The notes under the pieces were generated by a model that was not told the DNA's origin, made no database searches, and saw only the letters and a program-made list of their open reading frames with translations. Below, in pieces: positions 7,314-15,638 of a stretch of DNA of 64,000 bases (its first letter is position 1; each line of letters begins with the position of its first letter). Position numbers and translations under genes: made by a program. This stretch comes from Nitrosarchaeum sp. GTDB taxonomy: Archaea; Thermoproteota; Nitrososphaeria; Nitrososphaerales; Nitrosopumilaceae. Where the stretch lies: NCBI GenBank assembly GCA_002737445.1, contig NSIR01000001.1:1-64000 (forward strand), written 5' to 3'.

Positions 7314-8690
7314 ATGATATTGTTATTATCAAAATTTGGAATATTTGTAATATCTGTATCGCTACTATTTCCACTATCTAATGTATATGGACATGGATTT
7401 GGAATTGATACAATTTCTTCAGTTGATGTGGCTGGAAAGAAAATTTCAATTTCAGTAGAACTCCCAATGACTTTTGAACAAACTGGTGAAAAACAAATTA
7501 CAATTACTGCAACTGAAAATGAAACAAAAGAAAATGCAAAAAATATCACATTCCTTATTGGTTTATTTCATGAAAACAAAATGATATTTAGAAACTATTT
7601 TTTTGCATCTGATGGAGTCATTCCAATTAAAATAAATTCTACACAAGATGGTGAGATTACAATTCATGGAGAGCAAGATTCTTTGTTAGGTGCATGGCAT
7701 GGAACAGAATCTAAACCAGTAATGATTTCTGGTCCTATTTTCAATTCAGGAGGATTGTATAATTTTGAAATTGAAGTAAGAACAATTGATGAGCCAACAA
7801 ACATAATTGAAAATTCTGGTGTTTACAATGCAGATCTGAGTATTGTAGATAGCACAGAATTTTTACAAAAAGACGCCGAAAATCAGGATGTAGAGTTTAA
7901 AATAAAATCATATTTTGATAATATTTCCAATTTTGAGTATGATCCTATTACCAAACAAGTAACATTTGAGATGCCTTTTGATTGGAGTGAAAAACAAATG
8001 TCACACATTCCAGTTGTACATGAAGAAGTACATTTTCCCAAGAATTTTGCTGAATTTATGTCTCCAAGTTATACAGGTAAAGCAAACGGAATTGACGTGT
8101 TTAAAGCATCAGTTACAATAGACGATTACACTGTAGATGATGAAAGAATAGTTCATTTTGTTTTATTACAGGATCATCTCAGATTCATAAAGAATCAACT
8201 ACAAAAATCCGGAGAACCATTACCTGATAAAATCACTTTTACTCTTTCTAGATCTGAAGATATAGGATTCCCATTAACTTCATTTACAAAAAGTGAAGAC
8301 TTTCAAGTGAATCTCTCATGGGATCCAATAGAAATTGCACCTGGCCAAAATACAAATTTTATCTTTACAATTCGAGATGGTAAAAGTGGAGACCCATTAC
8401 GTAATTCGGATTATACTTTTGTAATTATACAAAATGGTAAGGAGATTCATAAAACAACTGGAACAGCACAGGTCGGTGGAGAATTTGAACGATATGAATT
8501 TACCAAAGATCAAACAGGTTCAACAATTATTAGATTTGAAAACATTCGAAATACCGGTCAAGAAACTGATTTTGTAGTCGTTGTTGCTCCTGAATTTGGT
8601 ACTATTGCAATTATGATTTTATTTTCTACATTATTGGTAGTAGTTTTGGCATCAAGAAATCATTTTTCCAAAAACCTAATTTCTAATTAA
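7314..8690 (+). CDS. Secreted surface protein with PEFG-CTERM sorting tail
   Basis: A protein of 458 residues. Residues 1-26 form a signal peptide, after which the mature chain would start HGFGIDT. The ectodomain is beta-rich. The C terminus has the tripartite sorting tail PEFGTIAIMIL, a hydrophobic helix and a short basic end (RNHFSKN), which matches the thaumarchaeal PEFG-CTERM signal. The middle (LLGAWHG, MPFDWSE, HEEVHFPKNF) is paralogous to the protein at 18540-20186 (YLDAWTS, MPFNWD, HEEIHFPTSF). It is probably exported, trimmed and anchored at the S-layer. Function is unknown; the N-terminal His after cleavage could bind metal. Confidence 0.8.
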   Translation: MILLLSKFGIFVISVSLLFPLSNVYGHGFGIDTISSVDVAGKKISISVELPMTFEQTGEKQITITATENETKENAKNITFLIGLFHENKMIFRNYFFASDGVIPIKINSTQDGEITIHGEQDSLLGAWHGTESKPVMISGPIFNSGGLYNFEIEVRTIDEPTNIIENSGVYNADLSIVDSTEFLQKDAENQDVEFKIKSYFDNISNFEYDPITKQVTFEMPFDWSEKQMSHIPVVHEEVHFPKNFAEFMSPSYTGKANGIDVFKASVTIDDYTVDDERIVHFVLLQDHLRFIKNQLQKSGEPLPDKITFTLSRSEDIGFPLTSFTKSEDFQVNLSWDPIEIAPGQNTNFIFTIRDGKSGDPLRNSDYTFVIIQNGKEIHKTTGTAQVGGEFERYEFTKDQTGSTIIRFENIRNTGQETDFVVVVAPEFGTIAIMILFSTLLVVVLASRNHFSKNLISN

Positions 8691-9615: not shown

Positions 9616-10020
9616 CTATAACGCCATAAGCTTTACAGTATCCATCTTCTTGTTTATAACAAATCCTTTAGTTACTGCTTCTATTTTCCTCGCATCTCCA
9701 TCTAGTAAAAACAATTCTACACATCTGTCCCCATCTATCTTGTTGTGTAGATGTGTCTTGATTAGATCCTCATAATCATGTTTTATTCCTGCAACTTGGT
9801 CATCAAATTCATCTGCATGAACCACCATCAAAAGTGCATTTTTTTTTCCTGTCATGTCTTGCTTTTGTTTTTCTTCTTGAACAAATGTCCTAATTCCAGC
9901 TCTTATTATTTCAGATCTACCCGTAAACCCCATTGTTTTTTGTAGTCTATCGAGCTCTTTGATCATTTCTTTGTTAAGGGAAATAGAAACAATAGTCATG
10001 TTATTGCTCTTATTAACCAT
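9616..10020 (-). CDS. NikR-like metal-responsive regulator (ribbon-helix-helix plus ACT-like domain)
   Basis: A protein of 134 residues, normal for NikR. The N-terminal ribbon-helix-helix (about 8-50: SISLNKEM, GFTGRSEIIRAGI) should bind a palindromic operator. The C-terminal metal-sensing domain aligns with E. coli NikR: His81, His92 and Cys100 keep the spacing of the nickel ligands His76, His87 and Cys95. The fourth ligand (His89) is replaced by Lys94. It is divergent from znuABC and probably controls it, sensing zinc or another metal rather than nickel; this is inference. The ATG at 10020 has a shared 11-bp promoter element 22 bp upstream. Confidence 0.85.
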   Translation of the reverse strand: MVNKSNNMTIVSISLNKEMIKELDRLQKTMGFTGRSEIIRAGIRTFVQEEKQKQDMTGKKNALLMVVHADEFDDQVAGIKHDYEDLIKTHLHNKIDGDRCVELFLLDGDARKIEAVTKGFVINKKMDTVKLMAL

Positions 10021-10041
10021 TATTTAAAACAATAACGTAAT

Positions 10042-10114
10042 CTTAATAATTTTATGTATAATAATGATATTTTTATTATTAAAAAACACTATAGTTATAC
10101 TGTAAATTATTAAG
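10042..10114. promoter_or_regulatory. Mirrored 11-bp element in the divergent nikR-like/znuA promoter
   Basis: CTTAATAATTT (10042-10052) and AAATTATTAAG (10104-10114) are a perfect 11-bp inverted repeat 51 bp apart. Each copy starts about 31 bp from an ATG: 20 bp separate one from znuA and 21 bp separate the other from the regulator gene. They therefore sit at the TATA/BRE position of both promoters. They could be the two core promoters, operators for the RHH regulator, or both. Confidence 0.5.
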
Positions 10115-10134
10115 TTTATATAGATTAATTAATA

Positions 10135-11127
10135 ATGAATAAAAAGATGAAAAAAAATCTAACCTATGCAGTATCTGGAGGAATAATTCTATCTGCAATA
10201 GCCATATCCTTTATGTTGTTATCTATACAAACATCAGATAATTCTGTTCCAGTACAAATTCAAGAAGAAAAAATCAAAGTGTTTGCATCGTTTTACCCAT
10301 ATTATGAATTTACACGAAATGTTGCAGGTGAATATGCAATAGTAAAACAATATCTTCCAACAGGAGTTGAGCCCCATGGTTGGGAACCACATGCAGGAGA
10401 AATCCAGTCATTGAAGGACGCTGATGTCTTTGTTTACAATGGTCTTGGAATGGAAAGTTATATCGATAGATTGATCATCTCTGGTGAATTTGATCATGTG
10501 ATTTTTGTCAAGGCATCAGATGGTATCGCATTTATCAACCCTACTGAGGAACATGACATAGGTGATGATGATTCAAATGCTGAACATGAAGAAGACTTTG
10601 AATTTGATCCTCACATATGGATTGATCCACTACTTGTAAAACAACAAGTAAATAACATTCGTGATGGATTAATCAAATCTGATCCTAAAAACACTCAGCA
10701 TTATGTACAAAATGCCTTAACATATAATGAAAAACTAGATTCATTGGATATGAAAATAAAATCAGAATTATCTAGCTGCCAAAAAGATACAATAGTATCA
10801 TTTCATAATGCATTTACATATCTTGGAAAAAGATATGACATCAAGGTAGTTGCATTAAGTGGTCTTGCACCTGATTCAGAAGCATCTGCCTCTAAAATTG
10901 CCAAATTAGTTGACTTCATAAAAGATAATGATATTAAAATTATTTTTGCCGAAGAACTTGTAGATCCAAGATTAGCAGAAGTGATTGCTGAAGAAACAGG
11001 CACCGAAGTTATGGTACTTAGTCCACTAGAAGGATTAACACCGGAGGAGGAATCTAGAGAAATGACGTATATAGAAAAAATGGAGCAAGACTTAGATTTG
11101 CTCAAGATTGCTCTAGAATGTCAATGA
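10135..11127 (+). CDS. znuA: Zinc (or manganese) ABC transporter substrate-binding protein
   Basis: A protein of 330 residues of the cluster A-I (ZnuA/TroA) family. An N-terminal hydrophobic segment (about 10-31) anchors or exports it. Metal-ligand regions are visible: EPHGWEPHAGE near residue 83, DPHIWIDP near 160, SFHNAF near 222, and EELVDPRLAEV near 275. An Asp/Glu/His-rich loop (EEHDIGDDDSNAEHEED, about 138-155) resembles the charged loop of zinc-specific members. Two Cys (in SSCQKD and the C-terminal ECQ) may form a disulfide. It overlaps znuC by 10 bases. Zinc is the likeliest substrate. Confidence 0.92.
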   Translation: MNKKMKKNLTYAVSGGIILSAIAISFMLLSIQTSDNSVPVQIQEEKIKVFASFYPYYEFTRNVAGEYAIVKQYLPTGVEPHGWEPHAGEIQSLKDADVFVYNGLGMESYIDRLIISGEFDHVIFVKASDGIAFINPTEEHDIGDDDSNAEHEEDFEFDPHIWIDPLLVKQQVNNIRDGLIKSDPKNTQHYVQNALTYNEKLDSLDMKIKSELSSCQKDTIVSFHNAFTYLGKRYDIKVVALSGLAPDSEASASKIAKLVDFIKDNDIKIIFAEELVDPRLAEVIAEETGTEVMVLSPLEGLTPEEESREMTYIEKMEQDLDLLKIALECQ

Positions 11128-11930
11128 TTGCATTAGAAGTAAAAGATATCAGTATTAGTTATAACAATCATCTAGCAGTTGATAAAATCAGTTTTGATGT
11201 GCAAGAAGGAGACCTATTGGGCATTGTGGGTCCAAATGGTGCAGGTAAGACAACACTGTTTAGAGCTATTCTTGGACTAGAGCAATACTCTGCCGGTAAA
11301 ATCAAGTTATTTGGATTTGAGGGTCCAAAATATCATACACTTCTTTCACTTATTGGATACGTTCCACAGAGAGTAGAGTTTGAACCCAATTTTCCTGCTA
11401 CTGTCTCTGATATAGTATCGATGGGAATAATTTCTGACAAGACAATAGCCAAAGGTGCAAAACTGATACAACAATGTGGTTGTTGCTGGAATAGAGTTTA
11501 CAAAAATATTGGTAATAATAGTGACAAGATAATAGAAGCACTTAGGACAGTAGGACTAGAGCATCTAAAGAATAGAAGAATAGGTGAATTATCAGGAGGT
11601 GAATTACAACGAGTCTTTATAGCAAAATCTCTTGTAAAGGATCCTATTTTACTAATTCTTGACGAACCTGTTACAAGTGTAGATGTTGAATCACAAACAA
11701 AATTCTATAATGTGATTAAAAAGATAAACGAAGAAAATAAAATTACAGTAGTGTGGTCATCACATGATCTTGAAGCAATTTCAAAATATGCAAACAGAGT
11801 GGCATGCATGAACAGGAAATTATTCTTTCATGGGGCAAAAGAAAAATTCTTTTCAGATGAAGATCTACTCAAAACCTATACAGAGTCTGCAATGCAAATG
11901 CATATGCACAATCATAACCACGATGTGTAA
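11118..11930 (+). CDS. znuC: Zinc ABC transporter ATP-binding protein with Cys and His metal motifs
   Basis: A protein of 270 residues with P-loop GPNGAGKTT (near 38), signature LSGGELQR, Walker B LLILDEP and switch SSHD. Two features are unusual. A Cys cluster QQCGCCWN lies between the Walker A region and the signature (near residue 118), and the C terminus ends MHMHNHNHDV. Both could bind the transported metal on the cytoplasmic side and tune ATPase activity; that is inference. Overlaps znuA by 10 bases; znuB starts 5 bases after its stop. Confidence 0.93.
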   Translation: MSMIALEVKDISISYNNHLAVDKISFDVQEGDLLGIVGPNGAGKTTLFRAILGLEQYSAGKIKLFGFEGPKYHTLLSLIGYVPQRVEFEPNFPATVSDIVSMGIISDKTIAKGAKLIQQCGCCWNRVYKNIGNNSDKIIEALRTVGLEHLKNRRIGELSGGELQRVFIAKSLVKDPILLILDEPVTSVDVESQTKFYNVIKKINEENKITVVWSSHDLEAISKYANRVACMNRKLFFHGAKEKFFSDEDLLKTYTESAMQMHMHNHNHDV

Positions 11931-11935
11931 ATAAC

Positions 11936-12790
11936 ATGATTTCTGATGTTCTCTCTTATGGTTTTATGCAAAAAGCTCTAATTGCAGGAATCGCAGTAGC
12001 GATAATTTGTTCATTTATGGGAACGTTTCTTGTACTTAGAAGATATTCTCTTTTTGGCGATGGCATAGCACATGTTTCATTTGGCGGTATTTCGATAGGA
12101 CTCTTCCTTGGGGTGGCACCCTTGTGGACTGCGTTTGTTGTGGCTATACTTGGAGGATTAGGATTGCAAAAGCTAAGGCAGAGTACAAAAATATCTGGTG
12201 ATGCAGCTGTTGCAGTAACACTTGTATCTGGACTTGCAATAGGAGTTATACTTATCAGCGCATCGGGGGGTTTCTCGGCAGATCTATTCAGCTTTTTGTT
12301 TGGCAGTATACTTTTGATAAGTCTTGAAGATACTGCATTAATAATTGCTATAAGTGCTGGAATTGTTGTTATACTTTTAGCATTACAAAAACAATTTTTG
12401 CATCTTACATTTAATGAAGAACAAGCAAAGATAGCAGGACTAAACGTGACTGCATTAAATTACGTATTTGTGGTACTTGCAGCAGTAACTGTTGTAACTT
12501 CGATGCGTCTAGTTGGCATACTTCTTATTTCTGCTCTTATTGTAATACCAAATATCTCAGCTATGATGTTTGGCAGAGGATTCAAAAAAACAGTTGGAAT
12601 ATCTATCACAATGTCTATATTTTCAGTCGTTACTGGGATATTCTTATCATACTATCTCAATTTAGCACCTTCTGGCACTATAGTGATAATTACAGTAGCA
12701 TTATTGCTAGGTACACTTGCTGCCCGTTCTGCAGGATTGATATCAAAAACTTCAATTAACATTCCTTCAACAATTTCTCACAATTCTTGA
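11936..12790 (+). CDS. znuB: Zinc ABC transporter permease
   Basis: A protein of 284 residues with about eight to nine membrane helices, belonging to the ABC-3 metal permease family. Characteristic segments include GTFLVLRRYSLFGDGIAHVSF near residue 30 and RLVGILLISALIVIPN near residue 187. It forms the membrane channel fed by ZnuA and powered by ZnuC, and is the last gene of the operon. It converges on the copper-related gene downstream, with a 76-bp gap. Confidence 0.94.
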   Translation: MISDVLSYGFMQKALIAGIAVAIICSFMGTFLVLRRYSLFGDGIAHVSFGGISIGLFLGVAPLWTAFVVAILGGLGLQKLRQSTKISGDAAVAVTLVSGLAIGVILISASGGFSADLFSFLFGSILLISLEDTALIIAISAGIVVILLALQKQFLHLTFNEEQAKIAGLNVTALNYVFVVLAAVTVVTSMRLVGILLISALIVIPNISAMMFGRGFKKTVGISITMSIFSVVTGIFLSYYLNLAPSGTIVIITVALLLGTLAARSAGLISKTSINIPSTISHNS

Positions 12791-12866: not shown

Positions 12867-15638
12867 TTATCTAGACATAATTAATTCATTTAATCTTCTT
12901 TTATCTTTTAGACTCTTGACAAAAAATAATGCTGTTGCAATTATTCCCATTGCAATCAACGGTGATGCAATCTCAGTGTATTTTAATTTAAATCCATTAG
13001 CATTTGATATTTGAGACACTGTTGCTGGAATTTCTGTCGTCTTTACCAATGCTAATTTGTTTCCTCGTTGTTCAACAAACCAAACATTATCTTTATTATC
13101 CGATGTTGAAAATTGTGCAAATGATGTTGTAGTAGGAATTGGAATTTCTATTAAATTTTTGTTATATGGATCATATACAGCAATCCTATCTATGGTATGT
13201 TGCAGAATCCAAATATTTCCATATCTATCAAATGACATCCCATAAGGTAACGCTTCTTTATTTGGAACTGAAATTCTCTCAAATGTTTCAAGAATTGGAT
13301 CAAATTTGGTAATCGCTATACCTGTATGTTCTGCAATCCACAAATTTCCCTCATCATCAAAGACTAGGGCCTCAGGTGACGCAAGCGGTTTCTCTGGCAT
13401 AAATTCTGTTATATGATTATTTTTTGTATTGATGAATCCTATTTTACCTGCAGCAGATTCAGTAAACCAAATTTTTCCTTCATTATCAATTGTCAAGGCA
13501 AATGGCAGTGATTCTCGTGCAGGCATCTTGATTTTTTCAAAAGAATCAAGATTAGGTTGATATTTTAAAATTACATCTTTGTTAGTAATTGCAATCCATA
13601 TATTTCCATCAAAGTCTGCTTGGATGAAAGTAGCTATATTTTCATAAATTACAGGATCTATTTTTGGTAAAGTTTTCGTGGTGATTTTCTGATTGTTTGG
13701 ATCAAAATATCCAATCTGATTTCTTGGTGTATCCGTAAACCAAATTCTTCCTTGATTATCTTGTGTAAGTAACATGCTAGTTAAACCATCAAATGAGTAT
13801 GAGGTAAATTCTTGTGTGTCAAGTGAGAATTGCCACAATTTTGGTGACGATGCATCACTTATCCAAATTGAACTTTTTCCGTCATACAGAGGGTAAAGTG
13901 GTTTTGCAGGTTCTGGTAACTCGTATTCTATAATTTCTGTTTTAAGATCTATTAATTTTGGTTTAACTTGCAAATTTATAAAAATTGATTCATTTGCATT
14001 TTGCTTTCTTTGTGTTTCTACCTGTATTTGCCACTGTCCTGAAAATCCAAATGTTATCTCTCCTTGAAATTCAACTGATTTATTTTCTGATTCAATAATT
14101 TTCATAGGAATTTCTATTGGAGAGATATTTTTTTGAGGATTTGATATTTTTACTTTGATTTGATCTGAATCATTCAATGGTTTATTTTCAAAATCACTAA
14201 TTTTTACTATTATTGTGTTTGTCCCACTAGAAAATGGTGTTATTTTAATATCAAATTTAGTATTTTCTGAAAATTCTATCGTACTAAAACCATATGAAAT
14301 TTGAGCATCAGCTGATTTTATTTCTCCAGCAGGTAAAGTTCCATTAGATAATAAAGCAACAACTCCTAAAAGAGCAATTCCTAATATCGCCTCAAATTTT
14401 AATGATTTTTTTAATTTTTTGTATACTGTTATAGTGCCTGATTGTAGATCTTTTTCTGCCTTTTTCTGAATTTTGAACTGAAAATACCCTCCCAATCCAA
14501 CCATAATTGTAGCAATTGAAATCTTTAAGAGAATTAATTTTCCATACACTGATTCTGTAATTAGACCTACATCACTTTCCAAAAACCACATTAGTGTGGG
14601 TCCTGTAATTATTACAATTCCTATTGCAACAATGAACATGATTGAAAATCTTGGAATTAAAACAAGTGCCATTTTTTCCCGTTTTATTTCCTCTAATTGT
14701 GATAATGTAGGTAATAACGTAAATACAAAATAAATTGTTCCTCCAATCCAAACTGCAGCTACAAAATTATGAATGTAATCTAGAATAATTGCAGGTATCT
14801 CTCCACTGGCTGCACCATGTCCAATTAAACTTGAAGTTCCAATTAATCCAAGTGTAATTGCAAGCATTGGAATTTTATTTTTTATGGAAAGATTTTTCTT
14901 CTTGTCCATTCCAAACCACAATCCCAAAAGAACTATGGTAATTATCATTCGAATTAACCATATATTTCCAAAATCAGTTTTAATTACTTCAAAAACTGTA
15001 GTTTCTAATCTTATTGTTTGTATTATTAACACTAAAATATTTGATGCAAAAATTAACACCAATCCAATACCTGTAATAGTCATAAATTTTCCATGATGGA
15101 AATATTCTAATTTTTTTGATTCCTTTCTGATTAATTCTTTATTTTGAGTTGCCCAAATCAGAATTGAGGCAACTATTACACCTAAAACAATAGTTTGACC
15201 AACTAATCCTGGAAATCTTGCTCCAGCTTCAGGCAGATACACAAGTTCATTAGATAATAATTGCTTTTCAGTAATTATTACATCTCCCACTCCAAAATTG
15301 AATGCGTCAGGTACAAGATGTCCGTCAACTTTTGAGAGAACATTACTTGTTACTGTATAGACTCCACTCTCTAATGGAGGTGTAGTAACTACTAGAGATT
15401 TTTTATCTTCAAAATATTTTGTATCTTTGTTATCAATCTGATCTCCATTATTATCAAGTACTTTGAGAGAACTAAAATTAACATCAATTGGTTCTGAAAA
15501 ATAAACTATTACTTGTGTTAGTCCCTCAACTGCATTTGATGAAGAATCTGGACTAGTTTCCATAGTAAATGGATGAGCTGCAGCATATGGAATTGATATT
15601 GATAAAATTACTGATAAAATAATTAGACTTTTTCCCAA
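12867..15638 (-). CDS. CopC-CopD-beta-propeller fusion membrane protein (copper handling)
   Basis: A protein of 923 residues in three parts. After a signal peptide (about 1-21) comes a CopC-like copper-binding domain (about 22-122) whose mature end starts HPFTMETSP and which contains KVDGHLVPDAF, the likely partner ligands. Next come about eight membrane helices of CopD type (about 150-440). After an immunoglobulin-like stretch (about 445-560) comes a six-bladed Vgb/NHL-like propeller with repeated GxIWFT and GNIWI motifs (about 570-870), then a last membrane helix. It probably binds or imports copper at the cell surface, relevant for copper-rich ammonia oxidisers. The TTG start is preceded by a CTGAAAAG stretch. 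CopC-CopD fusion is known; the propeller addition is the unusual part. Confidence 0.88.
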   Translation of the reverse strand: MGKSLIILSVILSISIPYAAAHPFTMETSPDSSSNAVEGLTQVIVYFSEPIDVNFSSLKVLDNNGDQIDNKDTKYFEDKKSLVVTTPPLESGVYTVTSNVLSKVDGHLVPDAFNFGVGDVIITEKQLLSNELVYLPEAGARFPGLVGQTIVLGVIVASILIWATQNKELIRKESKKLEYFHHGKFMTITGIGLVLIFASNILVLIIQTIRLETTVFEVIKTDFGNIWLIRMIITIVLLGLWFGMDKKKNLSIKNKIPMLAITLGLIGTSSLIGHGAASGEIPAIILDYIHNFVAAVWIGGTIYFVFTLLPTLSQLEEIKREKMALVLIPRFSIMFIVAIGIVIITGPTLMWFLESDVGLITESVYGKLILLKISIATIMVGLGGYFQFKIQKKAEKDLQSGTITVYKKLKKSLKFEAILGIALLGVVALLSNGTLPAGEIKSADAQISYGFSTIEFSENTKFDIKITPFSSGTNTIIVKISDFENKPLNDSDQIKVKISNPQKNISPIEIPMKIIESENKSVEFQGEITFGFSGQWQIQVETQRKQNANESIFINLQVKPKLIDLKTEIIEYELPEPAKPLYPLYDGKSSIWISDASSPKLWQFSLDTQEFTSYSFDGLTSMLLTQDNQGRIWFTDTPRNQIGYFDPNNQKITTKTLPKIDPVIYENIATFIQADFDGNIWIAITNKDVILKYQPNLDSFEKIKMPARESLPFALTIDNEGKIWFTESAAGKIGFINTKNNHITEFMPEKPLASPEALVFDDEGNLWIAEHTGIAITKFDPILETFERISVPNKEALPYGMSFDRYGNIWILQHTIDRIAVYDPYNKNLIEIPIPTTTSFAQFSTSDNKDNVWFVEQRGNKLALVKTTEIPATVSQISNANGFKLKYTEIASPLIAMGIIATALFFVKSLKDKRRLNELIMSR

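Follow-up and report, generated by a model that had tools for sequence, protein, structure and literature searches.

A probable zinc-responsive repressor built on the NikR fold is encoded divergently from znuABC in ammonia-oxidising archaea

Introduction

The closest described systems are the NikR proteins, whose square-planar nickel site is formed by His76, His87, His89, and Cys95 (E. coli numbering). In the E. coli protein His76 is contributed by the adjacent monomer (PMC7055735), and proteobacterial NikR sites on DNA are inverted repeats of the form 7-N13/14-7 (PMC545781). H. pylori NikR also binds zinc, but its DNA binding is then weaker than with nickel (PMC7949043), so that zinc sensing would require an altered site. 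For Methanothermobacter, one sentence in a 2011 paper suggests a zinc role for the NikR homologue encoded beside ZnuABC (PMC3087415). The literature that we searched, in the portions accessible to us, contains no description of the variant NikR clade treated below and names no zinc regulator for ammonia-oxidising archaea.

Ammonia-oxidising archaea are among the most abundant cells of the ocean. Here we analyse a stretch of 64,000 nucleotides, hereafter the window, that encodes a NikR-like regulator whose closest named relative, at 84% identity, belongs to a Nitrosopumilus; the source is thus a Nitrosopumilus-like, ammonia-oxidising archaeon. A preliminary description of this DNA had proposed that the regulator lacks one nickel ligand and might govern the uptake of zinc or another metal on the NikR fold. 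Its comparison with relatives across the order leads us to regard the protein as probably a zinc-responsive repressor of zinc uptake, with a metal site that is more deeply altered than that description supposed.

Results

The 134-residue open reading frame at 9616-10020 (minus strand) encodes a NikR homologue with a ribbon-helix-helix domain (RHH_1, 31.7 bits) and a NikR_C domain (46.6 bits), both above the Pfam cut-offs. The Pfam scan returned these two domains and no Fur or MarR domain, and the protein is therefore not a Zur of the Fur-type fold. Its nearest solved structures in a phmmer search of the PDB are the NikRs of P. horikoshii (7e-10) and E. coli (2e-9), and domains and structure alike place it in the NikR fold family. 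Its scores fall below the three curated NCBIfam cut-offs for NikR proper (78.1 vs 111, 67.3 vs 83, and 57.7 vs 175.45). No other NikR_C protein was found in its own 1.19-Mb genome. A survey of 86 candidate viral stretches yielded no relative; 54 plasmid records did, and the 25 plasmid matches listed are mostly haloarchaeal, labelled NikR or CopG, and 26-33% identical.

Translation probably begins at the inner ATG (9999-9997), which gives a protein of 127 residues (9616-9999, minus strand), because the outer ATG, at 10020, directly adjoins a TATA-like box (10021-10028), a stop codon immediately precedes the equivalent methionine in one relative (L048), and most relatives carry a start-type codon at the inner position. 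Residue n of the 134-residue frame is accordingly residue n-7 of the 127-residue protein, and the latter numbering is used below for H61, H74, H83, H85, K87, and C93. Elsewhere in the window, at 7314-8690 (plus strand), lies a gene for a PEFG-CTERM protein; many relatives (L007-L022) have a homologue of it next to the regulator gene.

An AlphaFold model built from 13 sequences has the helix and strand order of NikR, with a weak DNA-binding half (mean pLDDT 67; 69-86 over ten-residue blocks of the C-terminal domain). Its best Foldseek matches are all NikRs, and its C-terminal domain overlays the nickel- and copper-bound E. coli domains at an rmsd of 1.0-1.2 A. H61 ends one strand of the model, H83, H85, and K87 end the next, and C93 begins a third; judging from the fold, H61, H83, H85, K87, and C93 would lie close together.

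Translation of the 134-residue frame reproduces the His81, His92, and Cys100 of the preliminary description and places further histidines at 68 and 90. The ligand region aligns with the NikRs of the PDB without a gap, which bears out the earlier assignment of Lys94 (K87; codon 9739-9741, minus strand) opposite E. coli His89; the square-planar set is thus incomplete. The remaining metal-site codons, on the same strand and likewise within 9721-9819, are H61 (9817-9819), H74 (9778-9780), H83 (9751-9753), H85 (9745-9747), and C93 (9721-9723). At E. coli positions 60, 76, 85, 87, 89, and 95, canonical rows of the same phylum read almost without exception Y-H-T/S-H-H-C; the variant clade reads H-H-H-H-K-C.

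These residues were counted in a first set of 57 rows and in an enlarged set of 139 rows across the order, each including some loci drawn from two collections and so counted twice. The clade is defined by a histidine at the Tyr60 position, which 103 of the 139 rows have and 36 lack. Among these 103 rows, H85 and C93 are invariant, K87 is present in 97, and H74 and H83 are present in 96 each; the other residues at the K87 position are Arg (3), Thr, Gln, and His (1 each), and the seven rows without H74 have Arg, Gln, or Leu. For the first set, counted over 60 distinct rows, the occurrences are 60 for H61, H85, and C93, 56 for H83 and K87, and 53 for H74. A search for alignments restoring a histidine opposite His89 found a single one, L184, among the 103 clade rows; the window and its close relatives have none. 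Since 55 of the 57 first-set rows and 97 of the 103 clade rows of the enlarged set carry lysine at this position, Lys94 is neither chance nor a sequencing error.

The claim that three nickel ligands are kept accordingly stands for His92 and Cys100, and fails for His81 in seven of 103 rows. The description of one ligand replaced falls short: in the clade alignment one ligand is lost, two histidines are gained, namely His68, where E. coli has Tyr60, and His90 (two before the His87 equivalent; Thr or Ser in canonical NikRs), and the inter-subunit histidine H74, equivalent to the second nickel ligand His76, is dispensable. Because the clade that lost His89 also gained His68 and His90, its metal site is rearranged and not merely one ligand short. 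A further change lies in the DNA-contact strand, where Arg3 of the canonical rows, a residue that we take to contact DNA, is Ile in 57 of the 60 distinct clade rows.

The same alignment bears on a site without metal, in which Lys87 would fill the nickel pocket of a constitutive or otherwise controlled repressor. A positive side chain does occupy the ligand position in 100 of the 103 rows (Lys 97, Arg 3), and His74 is also lost in seven; the invariance of H61, H85, and C93 in the 60 distinct rows, together with the two gained histidines, is hard to explain without metal, and we consider this account very improbable.

The ligand changes mark a single lineage. In a tree computed with the six metal columns left out, the clade rows (63) form one side of a branch with a support of 99, and in a thinned set, treated likewise, 84 clade rows do so with a support of 96. 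Long branches make the placement of three rows in these trees unsure (L058, L061, and L207).

To the right of the regulator gene, and divergent from it, lie znuA (10135-11127, start at 10135 or 10147), which encodes a zinc-type substrate-binding protein with three ligand histidines (PF01297, 265 bits), znuC (11118-11930), which encodes the ATPase (PF00005), and znuB (11936-12790), which encodes the permease (PF00950, 226 bits), all on the plus strand. Beyond znuB, at 12867-15638 (minus strand), a 923-residue protein combines CopC, CopD, YtkA-like, and virginiamycin-B-lyase-like parts, and such a copCD-like gene adjoins znuB in several relatives too.

The regulator is present in 117 of 131 genomes of the family. 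There are 123 regulator places, and at 105 of them (105 genomes) a znuC-like match lies on the opposite strand no more than 3.5 kb off. As other ABC ATPases respond to the znuC query too, this count uses orientation and distance besides score. Among the remaining 18 are second copies, sites at contig ends, and places without a listed partner. Loci lacking an adjoining znuABC include L046, L047, and L050. In the deep lineages of the order, a ZnuABC-type transporter lies near 23 of 39 variant loci, four others face a membrane protein, and the remainder either lack a recognised partner or run into a contig end. The four divergent membrane proteins (L173:4441-5361, L181:2947-3825, L205:3023-3892, and L206:3006-3851) share the motif HGxxPDEHTWP; the three of them that were scanned have no convincing Pfam or NCBIfam match, and they are perhaps further metal transporters. 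Three genomes of about 0.8 Mb without the regulator (G021, G438, and G448, loci L121, L122, and L133) retain znuC-znuB, flanked on one side by the copCD-like gene and on the other by pyrB or a contig end; no znuA was found at these loci.

Among 66 ZnuA-like proteins, some of them encoded beside canonical NikRs, the three columns that we take to bind metal hold His in 66, 65, and 65, and a fourth holds Glu in 57. Manganese-type binding proteins carry Glu at the third ligand column. NCBIfam gives the transporter no metal above cut-off; below it, the zinc protein AztC scores best with the binding protein (183 bits) and MntC second (150 bits). A sensor of manganese, copper, cobalt, or iron, with a transporter carrying that metal, might thus be argued from the MntC match, from the manganese and iron systems that belong to the cluster A-I transporters, and from the copper-linked copCD-like gene after znuB in the window. 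The histidine of the third ligand column in 65 of 66 proteins speaks against it, as do the ZIP and COG0523 partners described below, and the His- and Cys-rich sensor site fits zinc, cobalt, or copper better than manganese; we think such a sensor unlikely.

The 114 bases between the regulator gene and znuA hold four half-sites of the form TTATTAA or TTAATAA. One lies at 10043-10049 (TTAATAA) and one at 10076-10082 (TTATTAA), and the last two make up a predicted operator dyad, TTATTAA-N15-TTAATAA (10107-10135), whose final base is also the first of znuA and which has no second exact match in the 1.19-Mb genome. Its spacer contains the TATA-like box of znuA, TTTATATA (10115-10122, plus strand), so that the candidate operator lies over the promoter of the presumed zinc importer. 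A fifth half-site, TTATTAA (10010-10016), just inside the 134-residue frame, is kept in many relatives and falls between the probable start of the regulator and its own TATA-like box, TTTAAATA (10021-10028, minus strand). Both boxes are putative promoter elements, recognised from the sequence.

In 48 regulator-znuA regions there are 187 half-sites where dinucleotide shuffles predict 21, and 39 dyads where they predict 0.29; the regions are related, and the counts are therefore not independent. The spacer is 15 in 33 of these dyads, 14 in five, and 16 in one. The exact dyad occurs 24 times in 41 whole genomes, 21 of these adjoining the regulator. We rejected this genome-wide count as proof, since a reversed control pattern gives a similar total (21 vs 24 in the 41 genomes): frequency alone proves nothing, and only position counts. 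Likewise only the exact dyad is informative, because the form with up to two mismatches gives four matches in the window against 5.4 expected.

A regulon wider than znuABC was considered and rejected. Three exact dyads lie away from the regulator; one precedes a znuC-znuB pair in G049, and those at 216933 in G008 and at 152927 in G022, whose neighbouring genes have no evident link to zinc, are taken as chance. In family genomes without the regulator, no dyad was found at the znu loci examined (L118-L123 and L133), several of which have no znuA beside znuC-znuB; L118 and L133 are cut there.

Other neighbours of the variant clade also have links to zinc. The G049 regulator diverges from a gene for a ZIP transporter (PF02535, 84.6 bits), and the genome has one exact dyad, 4.4 kb away and directly preceding znuC-znuB. 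A second regulator copy in G263 diverges from a DtxR-like gene followed by one for a COG0523 GTPase, a group of which a subset is zinc-linked (PMC2770081). G424 encodes three copies. Two are variants, each diverging from its own znuABC and each with an exact N15 dyad; the third is a canonical NikR near a weakly nickel/cobalt-efflux-like gene, with another such ABC transporter further off, in a stretch without the dyad.

For comparison we took 27 canonical NikR loci with their flanks (L059-L064, L135, and L138-L157), selected neighbours of which were scanned. A ZnuABC-type transporter lies near four of them (L059, L135, L155, and L157). CbiM is encoded beside three, one of which also has HypD, and HypA beside one. 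A nickel/cobalt transporter supposed for L135 and L063 was discarded: Pfam matches neither, and NCBIfam gives a weak RcnA-type match for L135 only (1e-9, below cut-off).

The linkage of the regulator is thus to znuABC and not to nickel uptake or nickel enzymes. Urease occurs in 57 of the 131 family genomes (one under the curated cut-off), namely in 50 of 117 with the regulator and seven of 14 without, and its presence is unrelated to that of the regulator. The window's own genome encodes a urease alpha subunit (G000:C1:126630-126986) and no second NikR_C protein, and this, with the NikR fold and the four canonical loci near similar ABC transporters, is what favours a regulator that still senses nickel, a znuABC-like importer of nickel, and a lysine that leaves the metal unchanged. 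That account must contend with the loss of a square-planar ligand in 102 of 103 clade rows, the indifference of the regulator to urease, the ZIP and COG0523 partners, and the separate canonical NikR that G424 retains beside its two variants; we judge it improbable.

Two proteins of one family look intermediate. L207:3856-4340 (G498) has the ordinary nickel ligands (YHTHHC) with clade-type residues on the DNA face, and it faces a ZIP gene across a TTATTAA-N14-TTAATAA dyad. L184:4-458 (G521), which lies at a contig end, reads HHQHHC, combining His61 and His87, and is closely preceded by an exact dyad. Either the ligand change followed the zinc role, or the pairing with a partner fails to identify the metal. 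A tentative and rather speculative reading, in which a clade-wide switch from nickel to zinc sensing went in steps, would have the DNA face and operator change first (L207), then Tyr61 to His (L184), then His87 to Lys along with His83; its end point would be a zinc regulator through most ammonia-oxidising archaea.

Discussion

The proposal of a zinc-uptake regulator on the NikR fold holds up in the order-wide znu linkage, the conserved operator, and the ZIP and COG0523 links, and gives way on the single replaced ligand. We take zinc to be the likely effector. The C-terminal domain would bind zinc at a rewired site in which Lys87 replaces the nickel ligand His89, and the invariant His61, His85, and Cys93, with His83 and, less strictly, His74 of the neighbouring subunit, would complete a tetrahedral-type coordination. 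These changes appear to be of the kind that a zinc-answering sensor would need. A zinc-loaded tetramer could then bind the dyad, whose arms flank the znuA TATA box; this placement suggests that the metal-loaded regulator competes with TBP/TFB, which would be kept off and znuABC shut while zinc is sufficient. The half-site by the regulator's own TATA box may provide autoregulation, and under zinc shortage the regulator would let go of the dyad. A co-repressor role is assumed for the metal by analogy with NikR and with uptake regulators in general.

Counting against zinc are L207, with its nickel ligands, ZIP partner, and N14 dyad; the canonical NikRs near the same ABC type in four of 27 loci; the deep lineages, where only 23 of 39 variant loci lie near such a transporter; the lack of any NCBIfam metal assignment of the transporter above cut-off; and a genome that has urease and no other NikR_C protein.

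If a zinc-responsive repressor is nevertheless the right reading, proteins that annotation and databases would label as nickel regulators form a family sensing another metal, and the conversion of a square-planar nickel site into a zinc site can be followed by natural comparison within the NikR fold, with sequences that look intermediate. A small protein and 29 bp of DNA would suffice for a direct test.

Set against the known NikRs (structures 1Q5V and 2HZA from E. coli, 2BJ1 from P. horikoshii, and 2CA9 from H. pylori), the regulator shares the RHH and NikR_C fold and the His87 and Cys95 equivalents, and its predicted operator, like theirs, is an inverted repeat of two 7-bp arms. It differs in His89 to Lys, Tyr60 to His, the Thr/Ser before His87 to His, a His76 that is not always kept, and Arg3 to Ile, as well as in its TTATTAA arms with N15 and its linkage to zinc-uptake genes; given the 7-N13/14-7 proteobacterial sites, its operator is NikR-like in layout and not in sequence. 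Zur (Fur family) and AdcR (MarR family) resemble it in the proposed zinc co-repression of a ZnuABC-type importer and differ in their unrelated folds. The nearest parallel, MTH603 / MTBMA_c09830 of Methanothermobacter, is likewise a NikR homologue adjoining znuABC and differs in being euryarchaeal, a comparison made from its published description; to the suggestion made there our analysis adds the clade, its ligand pattern, its operator, and the contrast with nickel-linked relatives.
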